Shown here: piece after piece, positions 925-24,283 of the stretch | Position numbering within the stretch: the first letter of the stretch is position 1 | Layout: every line of letters starts with the position of its first letter | NCBI GenBank assembly: GCA_027334715.1 | Contig: DAHWUG010000002.1 | Span: forward strand, 1 to 39,402 | Source: Nanobdellota archaeon | GTDB lineage: Archaea > Nanobdellota > Nanobdellia > Pacearchaeales > GW2011-AR1 | Direction of reading: 5' to 3' | Length of the DNA stretch: 39,402 nucleotides | Notes under the pieces: generated by a model | Told to the model about the DNA's origin: nothing | Database searches by the model: none | Seen by the model: only the letters and a program-made list of their open reading frames with translations | Position numbers and translations under genes: made by a program

Positions 925-3900
925 ATGAAACCTGGAAAACACCTCATTGTAAAAAAATATCTTGAAGAGCACTCTTTGGTAGAGAGTAATATTATTTCAT
1001 TTAATAATTTTGTTGAAAAAAGGATGCAGGAAATAGTTAATGAAATTGCAGAAACAATAAATAACGAGGATTTTGAGATAACTCTTGGAAAAATAGAAAT
1101 TGGAAAGCCAAAAGTCATCGAAGCTGACGGCAGTTCCTCGCTTATAACCCCACAGGAGGCTAAACTAAGGGATTTGACATATGCCGCTCCAGTAAACCTA
1201 GAGCTGACTGTAAAGAAGGATGACCAGGTTGATTCAGAAACAGTCGAAATCGGAAAAATCCCAATAATGGTAAGAAGCAAATTCTGCAATACGTATGGAA
1301 TGTCAAAAGAACAGCTTATAGAAACATATCATGACCCTTTGGACCCAGGGGGATATTTTGTCATAAAGGGAAATGAGCGTGTAATGATCATGGCAGAGGA
1401 CCTTGCAGAAAACCAGCCATTTATAGAAGATAATTCCAAGGGTGATTTGACCTTAAAATTATTCTCATCAAAAGGAACTTACAGGATACCTGTCCTTATT
1501 TCTGAAAACAAGGAAGGAATAATTGATGTTTCATTCAGTAAATTCAAGGATGTTCCTGCTGTAATAATACTCAAGGCTCTTGGATTGATAAAAGAGTCAG
1601 ACATTGCAAAATACATAGGAAAGGAAACAGACGCTATGATAGTTAACCTGTATGAATTTGCCAATATAGCAACAAAAGAAGATGCCATGCTTTACATTTC
1701 CGAGAAAACGAGCCTTCAGGGAACAAAGAAAGAGATTCTTGACCGGGTAAAACAAAGAATAGACTCCTATCTTTTTCCCCACATTGGACAAAAGAAAGAA
1801 GACAGAATAAAAAAAGCTGTCACGCTCTGCAAGCTGATAAAACAGTTCCTTATTGCAAAGGAAAATCCAAAATTAAGAACAGACAAGGATCATTATGCAA
1901 ACAAAAGAGTCAGGCTTTCAGGAGACCTTTTGGCAACTTTGTTCAGGGTTAATCTTGGGATTTTGATAAGGGATATACAATACTCCCTGCAAAAATCAGC
2001 TAAGAGAAAGAAATTCTTTTCAATAAAAATAATCGCAAAATCAACATTATTCTCCCATAGGGTGGAATCAGCCATTGCAACAGGAAGCTGGACAGGAGAA
2101 AGAAGTGGAATAACGCAAAACATGGACAAGACAAATTATCTTGCTACAATTTCTCAGTTGCAGCGTGTTTCTTCCATGCTTGCAAGCGACCAGGAAAATT
2201 TCGCTGCAAGAACATTGCACCCGACACATTATGGAAGATTTTGCCCTATTGAAACTCCTGAAGGAACAGAAATAGGCCTCAGGAAAAACCTTGCAATTCT
2301 TAGCAGAGTCTCAACAAGAACAGACCTTAGCGAGGAAAAATTCCTGAAGGATCTTTCAGTCAGCGGACTTGAGATAGAAGGAACAGACGGAACAGAAGTT
2401 TCACTTAATGGTATTTTTATAGGCATGGCAAAAAGTCCAAAAGAATTCACAAGAGCAATAAGAGAAAAAAGAAGAAAGGGGGAACTTCCTATTGAAATGA
2501 ACATAAGATATGATGAAAATTTCCAGACAATAAATATTTACACAGAACCAGGAAGGGTTCTAAGGCCTTTAATAATAATTGACAATGGCGCTTCAAGATT
2601 AAAAAATGAGCACATGGTAAGAATTGAAAGCGGAGAAATAGGCTGGAAAGACCTTATCAGGGAAGGTATTATTGAGTATATCGACGCTGCAGAAGAAGAG
2701 GAAGCACTTGTTGCCCTGTATGAAGAGGACATAACTACCGAACATACCCATCTTGAAATTGACCCAACAGACTTGTTTGGTGTTATCACAAGCCTTGTTC
2801 CATATTCAAATCATGACCAAAGTTCCAGGTTGAACAGGGGAAGTAAGACACAAAAGCAGGCTCTTGGATTGTATGCTGCAAATTATTTGACAAGACTTGA
2901 CACAGATGTTTCCATCTTACAGTATCCGCAAAAACCAATTGTAAGGAGCTTTGTCTATGATACATTGCAGGCGTATCCTGCAGGACAAAATCTTGTCGTA
3001 GCTGTCATGACACATGAAGGATACAATATGGAAGATGCGCTTGTTTTCAACAAAGGAAGCCTTGACAGAGGGGTAGGAAGAAGTTTTTATTTCAGGCCTT
3101 ACAGCGCTGTTGAAATGAATTATGCAGGCGGATTAAAGGATGAAATAGTCATTCCTGAAAAAGATTCTTCAGGATACAAGACAGAAGAAAGCTACAGGCA
3201 TCTTGAATCAGACGGAATTGTCTCTCCTGAAGCAGAAGTTGACGAGGGAGAGGTAATGATTGGAAAAGTTTCCCCGCCAAAATTCCTTTCAGAAGCAAGG
3301 GAAATTTCTGTAAGGACAAAGAAAGAATCAAGCGTCTCAATGAAGCAGGAAGAAAAAGGAATTGTTGAGGGTGTTTTCATAACAGAGGATGACGACGGAA
3401 ACAAGATAGTGCAGGTTAAAACAAGGGATCAGAGAATTCCCGAGCTTGGGGACAAATTCGCAACATCACACGGACAAAAAGGAGTTATTGGCTTGATTGT
3501 TGATGAAGAAGATGTTCCTTTCACTTCAAAAGGAATAAGGCCAGATGTCATGTTCAATCCTCACGGTCTTCCAAGCAGAATGACAGTTGGTTATCTTCTT
3601 GAATTGCTTGCGGGAAAAGTAGGATGCCTGAAGGGGGAAGTAATGGACGGAACAGCTTTCTCTGGAACAGACAAGAAAGAGCTTGAAGAAGCCCTCAAAG
3701 AGCTTGGATTCAGTTATGATGGAAAAGAAACAATGTATTCTGGAATAACCGGCAAAAAAATGCAGACAAAAATATTCGTCGGTAATCTTTATTACTTGAA
3801 ACTTAAATATATGGTAGGAAATAAGCTTCATGGAAGAGCTTCCGGTAAAATCGCATTGCTTACAAGACAGCCTGTTGAGGGAAGGTCCCGTGGCGGTGCA

Positions 3901-4179
3901 TTGAGGCTTGGAGAAATGGAACAGCAGGCAATGGTTGCGCATGGAGCCTCTTTGCTATTGAAAGAGAGGTATGATTCTGACAAAGTTGTTCTTCATGTCT
4001 GCACAAAATGCGGAGCGCTTGCAATAGAGGATAACATAAGGGACAAGACAGTCTGCCCCATATGCAATTCAGAAGAAGTTGAGCCTGTTGAAGTATCATA
4101 TGCATTCAAACTTTTGATTGAAGAGCTTCAGGGTCTTCATATTCATACAAACTTTGACCTGAAAAATAAATATGAATAA
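925..4179 (+). CDS. rpoB: DNA-directed RNA polymerase subunit B (unsplit B''+B')
   Basis: 1084 aa; GRFCPIETPEGTEIGLRKNLA, GDKFATSHGQKGVIG, C-terminal zinc motif CTKCGALA...CPIC. Confidence 0.97.
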   Translation: MKPGKHLIVKKYLEEHSLVESNIISFNNFVEKRMQEIVNEIAETINNEDFEITLGKIEIGKPKVIEADGSSSLITPQEAKLRDLTYAAPVNLELTVKKDDQVDSETVEIGKIPIMVRSKFCNTYGMSKEQLIETYHDPLDPGGYFVIKGNERVMIMAEDLAENQPFIEDNSKGDLTLKLFSSKGTYRIPVLISENKEGIIDVSFSKFKDVPAVIILKALGLIKESDIAKYIGKETDAMIVNLYEFANIATKEDAMLYISEKTSLQGTKKEILDRVKQRIDSYLFPHIGQKKEDRIKKAVTLCKLIKQFLIAKENPKLRTDKDHYANKRVRLSGDLLATLFRVNLGILIRDIQYSLQKSAKRKKFFSIKIIAKSTLFSHRVESAIATGSWTGERSGITQNMDKTNYLATISQLQRVSSMLASDQENFAARTLHPTHYGRFCPIETPEGTEIGLRKNLAILSRVSTRTDLSEEKFLKDLSVSGLEIEGTDGTEVSLNGIFIGMAKSPKEFTRAIREKRRKGELPIEMNIRYDENFQTINIYTEPGRVLRPLIIIDNGASRLKNEHMVRIESGEIGWKDLIREGIIEYIDAAEEEEALVALYEEDITTEHTHLEIDPTDLFGVITSLVPYSNHDQSSRLNRGSKTQKQALGLYAANYLTRLDTDVSILQYPQKPIVRSFVYDTLQAYPAGQNLVVAVMTHEGYNMEDALVFNKGSLDRGVGRSFYFRPYSAVEMNYAGGLKDEIVIPEKDSSGYKTEESYRHLESDGIVSPEAEVDEGEVMIGKVSPPKFLSEAREISVRTKKESSVSMKQEEKGIVEGVFITEDDDGNKIVQVKTRDQRIPELGDKFATSHGQKGVIGLIVDEEDVPFTSKGIRPDVMFNPHGLPSRMTVGYLLELLAGKVGCLKGEVMDGTAFSGTDKKELEEALKELGFSYDGKETMYSGITGKKMQTKIFVGNLYYLKLKYMVGNKLHGRASGKIALLTRQPVEGRSRGGALRLGEMEQQAMVAHGASLLLKERYDSDKVVLHVCTKCGALAIEDNIRDKTVCPICNSEEVEPVEVSYAFKLLIEELQGLHIHTNFDLKNKYE

Positions 4180-4186
4180 ATAAAAA

Positions 4187-7100
4187 ATGTCAAAAACAAT
4201 CAGAAAAAAAATAAAATCAATAAGCTTTTCATTGCTTAGCCCTGAAAAGATAAAAAAGCTCTCTGTCGCAAAAATAGTCACGCCAGAACTTTATGACATA
4301 GATGGTTATCCTGTTGACGGTGGTCTGATGGATTTAAGGCTTGGAGCAATTGATCCTGGAGTGAGATGCAGAACATGCGGAGGCCGTTTGAAGGAATGCC
4401 TTGGGCATCCGGGCAGCATTGACCTTGCAAGATCTGTAATACATTTAAAATATGTTCCAATGATTGAACTTGGATTAAGATGCTTCTGCAAGCAATGCGG
4501 AAAATTAATGCTTTCTGAAAAAGACCTTGCAAAATACATACCAAGCCAGAGAATAAAAAAAGCAAAAGATGCCAAGAAATGCCCATACTGCAATACTGTT
4601 CAGGAAAAAATAAAGCTTGACAAGCCAACAACATTTTACAGGGGGAAAACAAGAATATTTCCAACAGAGATAAGAGAAACTCTTGTCAACATTCCTGATG
4701 ATGAACTTAAAAAAATAGGAATGAATCCGCATAATTTCAGGCCAGAATGGGCTGTGCTGACAATCCTTCTTGTTCCTCCAGTAACTGTGAGACCATCAAT
4801 CATACTTGAAACAGGTGAAAGAAGCGAGGATGATCTGACGCACAAGCTTTCAGACATAATAAGAGCCAACCAAAGACTCTGGGAAAATCTCAATGCAGGC
4901 GCTCCTGAAGTCATTATCGAGGATTTATGGGATTTATTGCAGTTCCATGTAACAACATTCTTTGACAACACAGTTACAAGAATACCTCCTGCAAGGCACA
5001 GAAGCGGCCAGCCACTGAAAACTATCACAGAAAGAATAAAAGGCAAAGAGGGAAGAATAAGAAAAAATCTTGCAGGCAAAAGGGTCAATTATTCAGGAAG
5101 AACAGTTATATCGCCTGATCCTTCAATGCAGATAAATGAAGTTGGCATTCCTTTTGAAATTGCAAAAATCGTAACTGTGGCAGAAACAGTCACAGACTTG
5201 AACATAGAAAGGCTGAAAAAGAAGGTAGAAAGCGGAGAAAATTATCCTGGCGCAAATTATGTAATAAGGCCTGACGGAAAACGTAAAAAAATAACACCTG
5301 AATTAAAAGAAGAAATAATCAATGAGCTTGTTCCCGGATATCAGGTTGAAAGGCATCTTGAAAATGGGGATATTGTTCTTTTCAACAGGCACCCCAGCCT
5401 TCACAAGGGAAGCCTTATGGCCCATTATGTAAAAGTTCTTCCTGGAAGGACATTCAGGCTTCATCCTGCAGCGAAAACTCCTTACAATGCTGATTTCGAC
5501 GGTGATGAAATGAATATTCACAGTCCACAGACAGAAGAAGCGCGTGCTGAGGCAAAAATCCTTCTTGAAGTAAAGAAAAATCTTATCTCTCCGAAAAATA
5601 ATACAAACTGGATTGGATGCCTTGGGGATGCAATAACAGGAGATTACTTGATGGGGCTTGAAGAATTTTCAAGGGAAGATGCAAACCAGCTTCTTTACAA
5701 TTCAGGAATTGACGGGGAAGTTTCAAAGAAGACAATCAGCGGAATAGAATTATTTTCAAAAGTGCTTCCTAAAATTGATTTCTCAGGAGAAACTGTGAAA
5801 ATAAAAGATGGGGAAATAATAAAGGGTGTTCCTGACAAGACCCTTTTCGGAGATGAAGACGGCATTTTGATAAGGGAGATAGACAAGAAATTCGGGAGAA
5901 ATGTTGCATTTGATTCAATAAGAAAGGCATTCAATATTGGAAAAAATTACCTGACTGGAAGAGGAATAAGCTTCTCTGTGGATGATTTTGATGTTGACCA
6001 GAAGATATTTGAGATGTCTGAAGAAATCGTCAAAAAAGCAGAGGAAAAAACTAATGAGATAATCGATGAATACAACAAAGGAACGCTTGAGATTATACAA
6101 GGAAAAACATCTGAGGAATCAAGGGAAATAAAGATTCTCAAGGTGCTTAATGAAGTAAGAACAAGAATCGGTGAAATTGTCAAAGAAGAGTTCCCTGCAG
6201 ACAGTCCGGTTACACACATGATAAAATCTGGTGGTGGGGGAAATATGCTTAATATAACGCAAATGGCTTGCTGCGTAGGCCAGCAGGATCTGGAAGGAAG
6301 AAGAATAGACCTTGGTTACAATGACAGAACACTTTCATTTTTCAAGAAAGGGGACTTAAATCCAAAAGCAAAGGGTTTCATAAGAAGCGCATTCATGAAA
6401 GGTCTTAAACCAGAGGAATTTTTCTTCCAGGCAATAACAGGTAGGTCCTCCCTTATGGACACTGCTCTCAGAACTCCAAAGTCTGGTTATTTGTACAGGA
6501 GGCTTGCAAATGCGCTTCAGGATTTAAGGATGGAATACGACAGCACTGTCCGCGACAGCAACAACAACATAATCCAGTTTGTTTATGGCGACGATGGAAT
6601 AGATGTTTCAAAGCTTCATACGGGTGGAAAACTTGAGCCTGGCGAAGCAATAGGAATAATCGCCGCTCAAAGCTTCGGTGAACCATCAACACAAATGGTA
6701 TTAAGAACTTTCCACTTTGCAGGTGTCTCTGAAATGCAGGTTACGCAGGGGCTTCCAAGGCTTATTGAAATATTCGACGCAAGAAAAAAGCCATCAAGCC
6801 CAAAAATGGAAATCTACCTGAAAAAAGAATTTAACAATGAGAAAGATGCAAGAATATTCGCAGAAAAAATAAAGGAAGTCACTGTCAGCGATTTTGCATC
6901 TGAGATAAACATTGATTTTACAGACAAAAGAATTGAAGTCAATATCGACAAGGAGGGGCTGCACCAAAGCCATACTTCTGTGAAAAAAATAGCCGAGAAG
7001 CTTAAGGAGCTTGGATTTTCATGCCATGATAAAACAGATTCAATATCAATTAAAGCACCTGGCGAGATAAGCTTCAAGGAGCTTTACAAGCTTAAGGAAA

Positions 7101-7678
7101 AACTTAAAAAAACAATTATTTCAGATATAAAAGGAGTAAAGCAGATTCTCATCGTTAAAAGAGGGGAAGATTACATTGTTATGACTTTGGGGACAAACCT
7201 GAAGAAAATACTTGAGCTGAAAGAAGTAAATACCCAGAGAACATTTTCAAATGACCTTCATGAAGTTGCAGATGTCCTTGGGATTGAAGCTGCAAGGCAG
7301 TTAATAATAAATGAAATCCAGGAAGTTTTGAACACGCAGGGTCTTGACATAGATAAGAGGCATCTAAAGCTTGTCTCAGATGCAATGACAAACATGGGCG
7401 AGGTAAAGGGTGTGACGAGAATTGGAATAATCGCGCAAAAATCATCAATACTTGCAAGGGCAACCTTCGAGACACCTGTAAAGCAGTTTGTAAATGCAAC
7501 AATAAAGGGAAACAAGGATCAGCTCACAAGCGTAATTGAAAATGTAATTCTTAATCAGCCAATTCCTGTTGGAACAGGGCTGCCAGGACTTCTTGTAAAG
7601 GTAGTAGGACCTCTTGTAAAGGAAGAATCAAAGAAGAAGTTTGCAAAAAAAGAAGTTGTAGATGAGATCGCAAAGTAA
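4187..7678 (+). CDS. rpoA: DNA-directed RNA polymerase subunit A (fused A'+A'')
   Basis: 1163 aa; NADFDGDEMNIH active-site motif, bridge-helix region GRSSLMDTALRTPKSGYLYRRL, and A''-type PGEAIGIIAAQSFGEPSTQMVLRTFHFAG in one frame. Confidence 0.97.
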   Translation: MSKTIRKKIKSISFSLLSPEKIKKLSVAKIVTPELYDIDGYPVDGGLMDLRLGAIDPGVRCRTCGGRLKECLGHPGSIDLARSVIHLKYVPMIELGLRCFCKQCGKLMLSEKDLAKYIPSQRIKKAKDAKKCPYCNTVQEKIKLDKPTTFYRGKTRIFPTEIRETLVNIPDDELKKIGMNPHNFRPEWAVLTILLVPPVTVRPSIILETGERSEDDLTHKLSDIIRANQRLWENLNAGAPEVIIEDLWDLLQFHVTTFFDNTVTRIPPARHRSGQPLKTITERIKGKEGRIRKNLAGKRVNYSGRTVISPDPSMQINEVGIPFEIAKIVTVAETVTDLNIERLKKKVESGENYPGANYVIRPDGKRKKITPELKEEIINELVPGYQVERHLENGDIVLFNRHPSLHKGSLMAHYVKVLPGRTFRLHPAAKTPYNADFDGDEMNIHSPQTEEARAEAKILLEVKKNLISPKNNTNWIGCLGDAITGDYLMGLEEFSREDANQLLYNSGIDGEVSKKTISGIELFSKVLPKIDFSGETVKIKDGEIIKGVPDKTLFGDEDGILIREIDKKFGRNVAFDSIRKAFNIGKNYLTGRGISFSVDDFDVDQKIFEMSEEIVKKAEEKTNEIIDEYNKGTLEIIQGKTSEESREIKILKVLNEVRTRIGEIVKEEFPADSPVTHMIKSGGGGNMLNITQMACCVGQQDLEGRRIDLGYNDRTLSFFKKGDLNPKAKGFIRSAFMKGLKPEEFFFQAITGRSSLMDTALRTPKSGYLYRRLANALQDLRMEYDSTVRDSNNNIIQFVYGDDGIDVSKLHTGGKLEPGEAIGIIAAQSFGEPSTQMVLRTFHFAGVSEMQVTQGLPRLIEIFDARKKPSSPKMEIYLKKEFNNEKDARIFAEKIKEVTVSDFASEINIDFTDKRIEVNIDKEGLHQSHTSVKKIAEKLKELGFSCHDKTDSISIKAPGEISFKELYKLKEKLKKTIISDIKGVKQILIVKRGEDYIVMTLGTNLKKILELKEVNTQRTFSNDLHEVADVLGIEAARQLIINEIQEVLNTQGLDIDKRHLKLVSDAMTNMGEVKGVTRIGIIAQKSSILARATFETPVKQFVNATIKGNKDQLTSVIENVILNQPIPVGTGLPGLLVKVVGPLVKEESKKKFAKKEVVDEIAK

Positions 7679-19224: not shown

Positions 19225-19851
19225 TTAACCTTCCTCAACAAACGGCACAAAAACAAATCCGGGCAGCCGTTTTTTTATCTCAAACTCGTTTTCTGAGCGC
19301 CTTTCAAGGACTATAATTTCCTGCTCGAAGCGGGATCCTTTAGGTGCAACGAGAATTCCATGATTCTTCAGCTGAGCCATTATCTTTTCAGGAACATCTC
19401 GCAAGGCAGCGCTGATTAAAATCCTGTCAAATTTTGCCTCATCCGAAAAACCATTTGAGCCGTTTCTTTTGAAAACACGCACATTCTTGTAGCCTTCATC
19501 CTCAAGATTTTCCCTTGATTTTCTTACAAGTTCTGGAACAACTTCAAGACCAATAACTTTTCCCGTTTTTCCGACAAGCTCTGAAATCAAGGCAAGGACA
19601 TAGCCTGAACCAGAGCCTATCTCAAGAACTTTCTGGCCTGGCTTAAGGTTCAGATTTGAAAGCATAAGCGCAATGGTATAGGGCTGTGAAGTTGTCTGGC
19701 CTTTTACAAGAGGAATTGGGGCATCATCATACGCCATTTTTCTCAGGTTGTATGATATGAAATTCTCCCTGTTTACTTTTGAAAAAGCATCAATAATTTT
19801 TTCCGGCGCGCCCCTTGTTCTGAGGCTCTGAAGCAGCTCTTTTTTGTCCAT
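19225..19851 (-). CDS. pcm: Protein-L-isoaspartate O-methyltransferase
   Basis: TTSQPYTIALMLSNLNLKPGQKVLEIGSGSGYVLALISELVGKTGKVIGLEVVPEL. Likely start MDKKELLQSLRTRG at 19851. Confidence 0.92.
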   Translation of the reverse strand: MDKKELLQSLRTRGAPEKIIDAFSKVNRENFISYNLRKMAYDDAPIPLVKGQTTSQPYTIALMLSNLNLKPGQKVLEIGSGSGYVLALISELVGKTGKVIGLEVVPELVRKSRENLEDEGYKNVRVFKRNGSNGFSDEAKFDRILISAALRDVPEKIMAQLKNHGILVAPKGSRFEQEIIVLERRSENEFEIKKRLPGFVFVPFVEEG

Positions 19852-19931
19852 TTCAGGAAAAAGTTTACATGGTTTAAATATCTTAATTACCACAATAAAG
19901 ATTATAAATAAAAAATCCAGTTTGGTTTGAT

Positions 19932-20282
19932 ATGGAAACAAGAGTCCAGATAGGAAACGGGCCTTCAACAACAATAGAAGAACTTGAAAGAATTGTTAGC
20001 GAGGTCAAGATGCTTAAAGCAAAGAAAATCAGGCATGACAGGAGGAAAATGAAGATACTTGGAAATCAAAACATTACAGAAAGGCTGATACATGTGCATT
20101 ACGATCCACTTTCCCCTGATTTTGGATATTCTGTTGATGATTCTGTCAGCAATGGCATAATGCCTGTAAATGTAGGGGAAGCTGAATACAACTCCAAAAA
20201 TCTTAAGGGAAGCGAATATTTTGGCAGCCACAAAACAGATGTAAAACTATTAGTTCCAGGGAAAGGAATAGTTGAAACTTAA
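19932..20282 (+). CDS. Hypothetical protein
   Basis: 116 aa ORF convergent with the SMC gene; its TAA stop abuts the 43-bp repeat. Confidence 0.55.
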   Translation: METRVQIGNGPSTTIEELERIVSEVKMLKAKKIRHDRRKMKILGNQNITERLIHVHYDPLSPDFGYSVDDSVSNGIMPVNVGEAEYNSKNLKGSEYFGSHKTDVKLLVPGKGIVET

Positions 20283-20353: not shown

Positions 20354-20396
20354 ATCACACTTTCAGGCTTATTATCTTGCTAATTCCTTCATGCAT
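20354..20396. repeat. 43-bp perfect direct repeat, copy 2 (true SMC gene 3' end)
   Basis: Same 43-mer; on the minus strand it encodes the C-terminal MHEGISKIISLKV-stop of the SMC protein. Confidence 0.97.
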
Positions 20397-23219
20397 GCTA
20401 ACACCATAAAGATTTGTAGCCTTGCTTATTACTTCATCATTGTGTGTTATGACAATATACTGGCCTTTCTGCATATATTTATTGAGAAGACCTGCTAGCC
20501 TTTCTGAATTTCTTTTGTCAAGAGCTGCATCTATTTCATCAACAAGATAGAAATAATACGGCCTGTATTCCTGAATTGCAAATATTAAGGACAAAGCAAC
20601 AAGTGTCTGCTCTCCTCCTGAAAGAGACTTTACATCGAAATATCTTCCATGACCTGTCTTAACTGTTATCAAAACTCCTGTTCCTTCTGCAAATGGGTCT
20701 TGCGTATTTTCAAGCTCAAGATAGACCTGGCCTTTTGTGCTAAGCTCTGAGAAATTTCTTGAGAAAAGCTCGTTTAGTATATTAAGCGTCTGCATGAAAA
20801 CTTTTTTCTTCTTCACATCTATTTCATGAACAATCTTCAGGATGCCTTCTTTCTCTTTCTCAATTGTTTCTGATTTTTCCTTTACAGCATCATACTCTTT
20901 TTTTATTGAGTCATAGACTTCAAGGGAGCGAAGATTGACTGTTCCAATTCCTGCAAATGCCTCCTGGCTACGAGCCAGTCTTTCTGTAAGTGAATTTCTA
21001 GGTAATTTTATAATTTCAATTTCGCCGAAACCTGCAAGCTCTGTGCCAAGGTTCTCTGCTTCTGCATCAATTCTTGCCTTTGAAATCTTTACTTCATTAA
21101 TTTCCTGCTCCTCTGCACGGATTTCAGTCTGCTTTTTTGAAATCTCCAGCTCTGTGTCCCTGTTTTTTTTCTGAAAACCATCACGATCTGATATAAGCTT
21201 CTGGAATTTTTCGCTTAACTTTTCTTCCTGAACCTTTTTCTTTTCAAGAATCTCCTCTTTTTCCATCAAAGTATCCATAAGGGAATTTATATCTTCATTA
21301 ATATCCTCTTCATTCCTTAATACCTGTTTCATAGAAGCGCGTATCCTTTCTGCCTCGCGCTCTTTAAACGCAAGATCTGAATCAAGTGTTTCTTTTGTCC
21401 TTGAGGATATCTCCTGAATCTCAATCCTAAGGTTTTCATATTTTTCATCAATGTTTGCATTGTCTGCAACTTCTTCTTCAAGATTCTTTCCTTTTTTAAC
21501 AAGCTCTGAAATTTCCCTTTTCAAATCGTCTGCCTTAATCTGCATTGTCTTTATCTGCTCTTTCTTCTCTTCTATTGAAAAAAGCTTTCCGATATCAATT
21601 TCTGTTTTTGAAATTTCTGAAGCCACTTGCTCAATGTCTTTAGATAACAATTGTTTTTTTTGTGAAATTTCCTTAAGCTCTTTGTCCATGGAATCAACTC
21701 CTTTTTTCAATGCGTCAATTATTGGAGCCATTTCTTTCTTTATCATTCCAAGATGCTCTTTTGTTATCTTGCTCTTGCATACAGGGCAAACATCCATGCT
21801 TGATATTTTTTCAAGAGTCTCTCTATGATGCTCTATCTCGGATTCATTTGCATATATTATCTTTTCAATCTCTGTTTCTCTTTTGAGAATGTTGTTCATT
21901 GAATCCTGCTTTTCCGCAAGTTTATGCCTTAAATCATCAAGCTTATTCTGTGAAGAATGCTTGTCAGAAAGAGCTATTGAAATAGTTTCTATCTGCCTTA
22001 AAAGGAAATCAGATTCATTTGTATAATTCTGGAAAAGGGAATTCTTGTCATCAAGCCTTTCCTTTACATTCTTAAGCTCTGCCTTTGAAGTGTAAAACTT
22101 TTTTCTGAGGCTTTCAATCTTTTCAAGCTCAAGCTTCTTTTTCTCCATTTCCTTTCCTTTGGTTTGTGAAGTCGGGGTTTCTTTCCTAAGGCTTCTGATT
22201 GTTGCCTCAATCGAATCAAGAGATTCCTGCATTTCCTTTTTCTGGTGCAGAAGCTCATTTAGCTTTGAATTATAATTTTCCTTTCTTACATTCAATCCTG
22301 CAAGCTCTGCCCTTAAATCAGCGATTTCCTGGTTGAGTTTTTCCTGCTCCAATCCTGTTGATTCCTGAATCTGCCTGTTTATTGCAGAAATTTTAAGTTC
22401 TGTGTTTTTAATCTCTGTTTCAAATCCAACAATTGTTTTCCTGAATTTTTCAACAATCCTGTTTTTTTCCTCTATTTCTGAATTTATTACTTCTACCTCT
22501 TTTTTCTTCTTTGACAAGTCATAGGATATTATGCTTGCCTTGAGTTTTTTTATGTCTTCCTCTAACTTTTTGTATTTCAAGGCCTGCTGCCTTTCTTTTT
22601 CAAGATTGTTAAGATAAGCTGTCCTTTCCCTTAAAATGGAAGTTATTTCCTTAAGCCTTTCATCTGTTTTTTCAAGCTCATGAAGGGATTTTTCCTTTCT
22701 TGTTTCATAAACTGAAATGCCTGAAACTTCCTCCAAAATTCCCCTTCTTTCCTCTGGCTGCATTCTTACAAAATTCTGAATCTCTCCCTGCAGAATTATG
22801 TTGAATCCCTGCGGGTCAATTCCAGCCTGCGCAAGCAAGGAAAGAATGTCCTGCCTTGTTTTTGTCTCGTCGTTTATCTTGTAAATACTCTGCCCATTTT
22901 TCCTGAGAATTCTTTTTATTGATATTTCCTGTGAATCAAGTGAAAATGTTTTTTGCGAGTTGTCAAAAACGATTTCAACAGAAGCCTCTTTTGCCGGCGC
23001 GATAGATTTGCTTCCTTGGAAAATAAGATCTTTTGTATGCGAAGCCCTGAGAGATTTCATGCTCATTCTTCCCAAAACAAAGCATATTGCATCGGAAATG
23101 TTGCTTTTTCCAGATCCATTAGGGCCAAGAATGACATTTATTCCTAGTGTGAATGGAATTTCTGTTTTTTGGGGGAAGCTTTTGAAGCCATGCATCACTA
23201 ATTTTTTTATATAAGACAT
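20355..23219 (-). CDS. SMC-family chromosome ATPase with Rad50-type zinc hook
   Basis: ~954 aa; Walker A GPNGSGKSN, GFKSF and EEVSGISVYE N-head motifs, LSGGEQTLVALSLIFAIQ signature, YLVDEIDAALD Walker B, long coiled coils, central CPVCKSKIT. Start MSYIKKLVMHGFKSF. Confidence 0.93.
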   Translation of the reverse strand: MSYIKKLVMHGFKSFPQKTEIPFTLGINVILGPNGSGKSNISDAICFVLGRMSMKSLRASHTKDLIFQGSKSIAPAKEASVEIVFDNSQKTFSLDSQEISIKRILRKNGQSIYKINDETKTRQDILSLLAQAGIDPQGFNIILQGEIQNFVRMQPEERRGILEEVSGISVYETRKEKSLHELEKTDERLKEITSILRERTAYLNNLEKERQQALKYKKLEEDIKKLKASIISYDLSKKKKEVEVINSEIEEKNRIVEKFRKTIVGFETEIKNTELKISAINRQIQESTGLEQEKLNQEIADLRAELAGLNVRKENYNSKLNELLHQKKEMQESLDSIEATIRSLRKETPTSQTKGKEMEKKKLELEKIESLRKKFYTSKAELKNVKERLDDKNSLFQNYTNESDFLLRQIETISIALSDKHSSQNKLDDLRHKLAEKQDSMNNILKRETEIEKIIYANESEIEHHRETLEKISSMDVCPVCKSKITKEHLGMIKKEMAPIIDALKKGVDSMDKELKEISQKKQLLSKDIEQVASEISKTEIDIGKLFSIEEKKEQIKTMQIKADDLKREISELVKKGKNLEEEVADNANIDEKYENLRIEIQEISSRTKETLDSDLAFKEREAERIRASMKQVLRNEEDINEDINSLMDTLMEKEEILEKKKVQEEKLSEKFQKLISDRDGFQKKNRDTELEISKKQTEIRAEEQEINEVKISKARIDAEAENLGTELAGFGEIEIIKLPRNSLTERLARSQEAFAGIGTVNLRSLEVYDSIKKEYDAVKEKSETIEKEKEGILKIVHEIDVKKKKVFMQTLNILNELFSRNFSELSTKGQVYLELENTQDPFAEGTGVLITVKTGHGRYFDVKSLSGGEQTLVALSLIFAIQEYRPYYFYLVDEIDAALDKRNSERLAGLLNKYMQKGQYIVITHNDEVISKATNLYGVSMHEGISKIISLKV

Positions 23220-23355: not shown

Positions 23356-23607
23356 ATGGATGTAAAGGTAAAAAAGGCAATTGGAAGCGGTGTCCACAGA
23401 TTTGAAGGCAAGGGGGATATTAAGGAGATTATGGTAAATGCGGATTTTTTCATGCCTGAAAAAGAGAAGATTGATGTATGCTTCAAGGGAGAGAACTCTT
23501 CTGGCATAATCCAGCTGTCTCTTGAAGAATCAAGAAACCTTGTTAAAGAGCTTAAAAGAGTGAACAGAATAAGAAGGAAAATAAAAGTTTTGAAGTTAAA
23601 GAAATAA
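23356..23607 (+). CDS. Hypothetical protein
   Basis: 83 aa ORF MDVKVKKAIGSGVHRFEGKGDIKEIMVNADFFMPEKEKIDVCFKG... with TATA-like sequence (atctttataatattc) upstream. Confidence 0.65.
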   Translation: MDVKVKKAIGSGVHRFEGKGDIKEIMVNADFFMPEKEKIDVCFKGENSSGIIQLSLEESRNLVKELKRVNRIRRKIKVLKLKK

Positions 23608-23608
23608 T

Positions 23609-24283
23609 TTAAAGGGATAATTTTCTCTGGTTGGAATCTGAGTGGGCTTTTTTCCATGTGCTCCAGCTCTTTCTGAAAATTCCATGGTCATCCAGTTTCT
23701 TTAAGTTTTTTTTCAGGAATTTTTTTGTTTTTGGATCAGATGCATAGCCTGAACCTATGCTTTCACCATATTTTTCCTTGAGCATTTCCATCTCTCTTTC
23801 CCTCTCTTCTTTTGCAAGTATTGAAGCTGCTGAAACAGCGACATGATTCACATCTGCCTTGTGCTCGCATGAAATCTCTAGGTTGGAAAGATTGTCTATA
23901 TGTGTTTTGACTGTTTCCGTCCATGCTGTCCTGTTTGTTGATGGACAGTCAATCACAACTTTCATTTTTGTAAAGCCTTTGTTTATTTCATTTATTATTT
24001 TTGCAGACATCTGAGCTTCTAAATCATTAAGGTTTATTCCGTCATTATTTTTCCCATCAATCTCCTCTGCCTGCGTCTTAACTACAAAAAATGCCTCTGC
24101 TTTTTCCTTGATTATTATTTCAAGAAATGCCCTCCTTTTTTTTGTAAGCTGCTTGCTGTCCTTTACACCCAGTCTCTTCAGCTCTTTTTCTGTTTCATCT
24201 GTTATAAGACAACCAGCGAGAACCATTGGTCCAATTACAGGACCTCTGCCTGCATCATCAATACCTAAAATAAGTTGTGGCAT
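23609..24283 (-). CDS. rnhB: Ribonuclease HII
   Basis: LILGIDDAGRGPVIGPMVLAG, LGVKDSKQLTKKRR, HVAVSAASILAKEERERE, GSGYASDPKT. Confidence 0.96.
   Translation of the reverse strand: MPQLILGIDDAGRGPVIGPMVLAGCLITDETEKELKRLGVKDSKQLTKKRRAFLEIIIKEKAEAFFVVKTQAEEIDGKNNDGINLNDLEAQMSAKIINEINKGFTKMKVVIDCPSTNRTAWTETVKTHIDNLSNLEISCEHKADVNHVAVSAASILAKEEREREMEMLKEKYGESIGSGYASDPKTKKFLKKNLKKLDDHGIFRKSWSTWKKAHSDSNQRKLSL

Follow-up and report, generated by a model that had tools for sequence, protein, structure and literature searches.

The only full SMC protein in the genome of this Nanobdellota archaeon is very likely the Smc subunit of a condensin-type Smc-ScpAB complex, in which the hinge has been replaced by a zinc hook of the Rad50 type. 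The hinge is regarded as a defining domain of SMC proteins and has been thought to be universal in the family. Here, a protein of 954 residues joins an SMC head to coiled-coil arms that meet in a CPxC-bearing hairpin, and this architecture is found in most genomes of the archaeon's order, which is probably Pacearchaeales.

The smc gene and its ATPase head

The window, that is, the whole stretch of 39,402 nucleotides that was analysed, carries smc on its minus strand (20355-23219, with an ATG at 23219 and a stop codon at 20355-20357; Table 1). The plus-strand frame across the same interval is riddled with stops. All head motifs named in the sequence-only reading can be read in the product (GFKSF, GPNGSGKSN, EEVSGISVYE, LSGGEQTLVALSLIFAIQ and YLVDEIDAALD), including the Walker A, signature and Walker B motifs of a prokaryotic SMC ATPase head. 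That reading had called them SMC-like rather than Rad50-like, and model scores agree. The NCBIfam prokaryotic SMC models TIGR02169 and TIGR02168 give 540 and 520 bits, which stay under the whole-protein cut-offs of 729 and 567, as expected because the hinge is missing, while the NCBIfam Rad50 models give at most 109 bits (cut-off 700). Pfam SMC_N matches at 187 bits, and the closest solved structures are the heads of Pyrococcus SMC (E 3.7e-104).

Head phylogeny gives the same placement. The SMCs of the order form one clade (support 100/99 and 100/100), which is sister to hinge-bearing Woesearchaeota SMCs (96/94 and 97/91) and lies inside the hinge-bearing SMCs of DPANN archaea. The heads thus nest in SMCs and not among Rad50, the outcome that the sequence-only reading had wanted checked; Rad50 rows formed very long branches in the first tree and were omitted from later ones. 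This position, beside hinge-bearing Woesearchaeota, indicates a vertically inherited SMC that has lost its hinge.

The protein had also been likened to the archaea-specific SMC-related proteins (ASRPs), of the coalescin or Sph type. It shares with them an archaeal host, membership of the SMC superfamily and a zinc hook. However, the ASRP model NF045487 gives 118 bits against its own cut-off of 300, with a best stretch of coiled coil only. The heads are also those of a canonical SMC, judged from the Pyrococcus match and from their position inside ordinary archaeal SMCs in a head tree that holds no ClsN or Sph rows. The likeness therefore does not hold up, and an identity as an ASRP is exceedingly improbable.

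Table 1. Features of smc, its product and its conserved neighbours in the window.
Feature	Position	Strand	Evidence or remark
RNase HII gene, upstream of smc (context, outside the complex)	23609..24283	-	adjacency kept across most of the order
smc, zinc-hook SMC, 954 aa	20355..23219	-	SMC_N 187 bits; Pyrococcus SMC head, 3.7e-104
ATPase head, N-terminal half, residues 1-168	22716..23219	-	Pyrococcus SMC head match; full-length model
Walker A GPNGSGKSN, residues 32-40	23100..23126	-	read in sequence; invariant in aligned orthologues
N-terminal coiled-coil arm, residues 169-473	21801..22715	-	predicted helices, globular domain absent
Zinc-hook loop, residues 474-486	21762..21800	-	AF2, Foldseek, PF04423
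CPVC, putative zinc ligands, residues 478-481	21777..21788	-	C478/P479/C481 invariant; aligns to PF04423
C-terminal coiled-coil arm, residues 487-730	21030..21761	-	structure models
Neck and ATPase head, C-terminal half, residues 741-954	20358..20999	-	Pyrococcus SMC head match; full-length model
LSGGE signature motif, residues 866-870	20610..20624	-	sequence and orthologue alignment
Walker B YLVDE, residues 891-895	20535..20549	-	sequence and orthologue alignment
Protein-L-isoaspartate methyltransferase gene, downstream of smc (context)	19225..19974	-	often kept in the same family

A predicted zinc hook at the site of the hinge

The toroidal hinge domain of prokaryotic SMCs (PF06470) has no match in the 954-residue protein under Pfam, nor anywhere in the source genome, and no true hinge was found in the middle of the protein. 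What lies there is the CPVC motif, exactly where it had first been placed (codons at 21777-21788, about residue 478 of 954). An alignment of 18 orthologues (40-64% identity) keeps C478, P479 and C481 without exception, in a coil region that is otherwise nearly devoid of invariant positions, and CPxC is present in every orthologue of about 950 residues that was examined. AlphaFold2 models residues 405-555 as a helix, a loop bearing CPVC and a second helix, with a mean pLDDT of 91.5, and a full-length model of lower confidence places no globular domain within residues 169-730. The proposal that a zinc hook replaces the hinge is well supported by these observations.

Comparisons with known hooks point in the same direction. 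In a Foldseek search with the hairpin, second and third place go to the Rad50 zinc hook 1L8D; lower in the ranking comes P. furiosus Rad50 (6ZFF), whose TM-scores, normalised to target length, are 0.73-0.76. None of the hits has an E-value below 0.001, as expected of a bare hairpin, and axonemal coils score alike; the search thus supports a likeness to Rad50 hooks and proves nothing. PF04423 (Rad50_zn_hook) scores 18.4 bits on the hook fragment, below its gathering score of 24.3, and passes that cut-off for L089, a hook SMC from Diapherotrites. Over the whole genome the tip of smc is the single place that matches this family. The hook is missing from the Pfam results for the entire protein and shows up in the fragment and whole-genome searches, and phmmer with the 84-residue hook segment against PDB sequences returned nothing meaningful. 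The apex of the coils is thus predicted to form a hairpin with CPxC in its loop, similar to a Rad50 zinc hook, which would bind zinc and dimerise.

The resemblance extends beyond the cysteines. A position-specific matrix that ignores the C, P and C columns was built from 42 Rad50 hooks. The SMC hooks have a mean score of 16.6 under this matrix, against -47.9 for windows elsewhere in the coils of these proteins, none of which exceeds 6.6; in 43 of 43 proteins the top-scoring window is the hook. SMC and Rad50 hooks from the same class are also alike by eye (for example, VSELDICPLCKTKIT in the SMC L052 and ISELDICPLCKQKVT in the Rad50 L235). Because of this likeness, the hook sequences suggest a graft from a Rad50, which would be a case of a domain moving between paralogues of the SMC superfamily; the likeness may also be convergence under shared structural demands.

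Genomic setting and partner genes

The sequence-only reading had raised the case of an SMC that is alone in its genome, and this applies to the source genome (588 kb, about 90% complete). It had also noted that no kleisin is recognisable nearby. This is correct for the neighbourhood, but the system is not kleisin-free, since ScpA and ScpB are both encoded elsewhere in the same genome (C2:320100-320732 and C2:133369-133806), with full reading frames scoring 49.6 and 120.5 bits, respectively. The scpA gene is on a different contig of the assembly from smc, so operon structure gives no support for the pairing of Smc with ScpAB.

Given a CPxC hook whose sequence is like that of Rad50 hooks, the smc product could be a Rad50 paralogue that acts with Mre11 in break repair. 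This is highly improbable. The genome has a distinct Rad50 (686 residues, with CPTC), and it is this gene that Mre11 adjoins, whereas smc has neither a Rad50-type head nor an Mre11 partner gene. The heads are those of SMCs (540 against 109 bits) and nest among SMCs in the head tree, and ScpA and ScpB are present.

Two small ORFs flanking smc (19932-20282 and 23356-23607) had been put forward for a test of co-occurrence. Neither has relatives beside orthologous smc genes, and they were dropped as candidate partners. The RNase HII gene (Table 1) also adjoins L060, an smc form that lacks the hook. Elsewhere in the window, two very long plus-strand frames lie next to each other at 925-4179 (1084 aa) and 4187-7678 (1163 aa).

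Distribution within the order

The hinge was searched for in 112 related genomes: 22 of the 25 that belong to other orders of the class have it, and no genome from the window's own order does. A second search found no hinge above the cut-off in 200 genomes of this order. Of 87 genomes of the order, 77 gave a match for ScpA and 81 for ScpB. A hook-region profile has matches in 176 of the 180 genomes of the order that were searched with it, and among the matches listed the best one falls in an SMC-type frame in about 146 of the 180, a count that includes several frames cut by contig ends; the remaining listed matches are Rad50 frames of about 690 residues. More than 40 orthologues from the order, each of the type with about 950-1000 residues, were seen by direct reading to carry CPxC. 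A Ca. Pacearchaeota genome (L087) has the same SMC architecture, and the hinge-bearing neighbours are Woesearchaeota; the probable naming of the order as Pacearchaeales rests on these two points. An assembly artefact was rejected, as the architecture is the same in more than 100 genomes.

Several genomes depart from this pattern in other respects. An insertion of about 520 residues, probably an intein, sits at the Walker A motif of smc in L065 and L066 and also in G025, G029, G034 and G076. One genome has a second, diverged SMC-like frame of 775 residues beside its hook SMC (G058:C22:16352-18607), which is either a paralogue or contamination. Two genomes of the class (G091 and G103, family f13), each nearly complete and in a single contig, lack both SMC and ScpA matches.

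Independent origins

Diapherotrites have a separate group of hook SMCs, in which 25 of 25 long frames checked have CPxC and no hinge, while other members of the class retain the hinge. One Diapherotrites genome (G225) was found to have ScpA and no hinge. A single origin of all hook SMCs was rejected by the AU test: forcing the two hook groups together gave p 9e-39 with one Diapherotrites row and p 3.3e-5 with a wider set. There have thus been at least two independent replacements of hinge by hook. Some Diapherotrites hook SMCs have much shorter arms and retain CPxC (L291 and L292, with 831 and 773 residues). Two others from this group, L295 and L296, have 1084 residues with neither a hinge match nor CxxC, and perhaps carry a diverged hinge.

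Arm lengths and forms without hinge or hook

In 45 hook SMCs, 446 residues (442-462) separate Walker A from the tip and 383 (382-447) separate the tip from the signature motif, against 475 and 425 in the hinge SMCs of the class. The hinge has therefore gone together with about 30-40 coil residues on each side.

Some families of the order have SMCs of about 780-810 residues with neither hinge nor CxxC, which emerge in the head tree at the root of the order clade as well as inside it. The zinc clasp is thus dispensable in those lineages. The tips of several such proteins (L060-L064 and L183-L185) resemble a short helical segment. Diapherotrites L287-L290 are likewise without hinge and CxxC. The same is true of SMCs of about 750-780 residues from the candidate phyla radiation (Patescibacteria-type; L111, L127 and L145), in whose genomes ScpA was found and the hinge was not.

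Because such relatives exist in both hook lineages, tip dimerisation may be unneeded, and CPVC could simply cap a monomeric hairpin through a disulphide or an internal zinc. This is very unlikely, as each tip has only two cysteines and could complete a four-cysteine site only with a second chain, and the hairpin and its register are the same as in Rad50 hooks, whose dimer is known.

Proposed function

On the reading of smc as the Smc subunit of Smc-ScpAB, two Smc chains would meet at the tip and share one Zn(II) between their CPVC motifs. ATP would engage the heads, and the kleisin ScpA, with ScpB, would bridge them to form a closed ring. This ring would load on chromosomal DNA and fold it as in canonical Smc-ScpAB. 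The binding of zinc, the dimer, the association with ScpAB and the role in the cell are inferred.

The hook could also link Smc chains of separate complexes, tethering two DNAs rather than closing a ring, since Rad50 hooks have been proposed to join separate complexes. This is unlikely. High-speed atomic force microscopy sees Rad50 hooks as a stable dimer within one complex that is interchangeable with a hinge (PMC6969161), and arm lengths in most orthologues keep to a narrow range, as expected for a ring.

Under ring closure by the hook, the absence of the toroid implies that roles of the hinge channel, namely single-strand entrapment and obstacle bypass, should be lacking. The hinge toroid was proposed in 2025 as a gate for bypassing obstacles, one that loop extrusion does not require (PMC12647877), and hook SMCs should therefore extrude loops without bypass. 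Channel-less SMCs tend toward longer arms (PMC12647877). The arms of hook SMCs are shorter than those of their hinge-bearing relatives, so arm lengthening is not the compensation here. A more far-reaching reading is distinctly unlikely: that the hook does more than stand in for the hinge and that Smc and Rad50, because both carry closely similar hooks in these cells, form hetero-dimers through a shared zinc that ties chromosome folding directly to break repair. These lineages would equally show that natural Smc-ScpAB can do without obstacle bypass through the hinge.

Relation to known systems

The hook SMCs share with canonical prokaryotic Smc-ScpAB the head, the signature and Walker motifs, the coiled arms, the presence of ScpA and ScpB in the genome and vertical descent. 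They differ in having a zinc hook and no hinge, and in their shorter arms. With Rad50 of the Mre11-Rad50 complex they share the helix, CPxC loop and helix of the tip and similar sequence flanking the cysteines, but the head is that of an SMC. ASRPs, including coalescin ClsN and Sph (PMC9389158), are likewise archaeal and most members have a zinc hook, whereas their heads belong to another family. The hinge-less SMC of marine actinobacteria has an SMC head and no hinge but, unlike the hook SMCs, lacks CXXC according to its authors (PMC12153180).

Exchanges of this kind have been made in the laboratory. When the hinge of B. subtilis Smc is replaced by the hook of P. furiosus Rad50, cells grow normally on rich medium (PMC5344682), and in fission yeast a Rad50 carrying the MukB hinge is functional (PMC6969161). 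The B. subtilis chimera has the same plan of SMC head and arms with a Rad50 hook at the tip. It is artificial, whereas the archaeal hook SMC is its natural counterpart, fixed in whole lineages and evolved twice. In the openly accessible papers that were searched, no report of a natural zinc-hook SMC was found.

Two lineages have independently replaced the hinge with a structurally unrelated clasp in genomes that retain ScpA and ScpB, which amounts to a natural experiment on the role of the hinge. The question of what the hinge is for thereby becomes a comparison between natural complexes.
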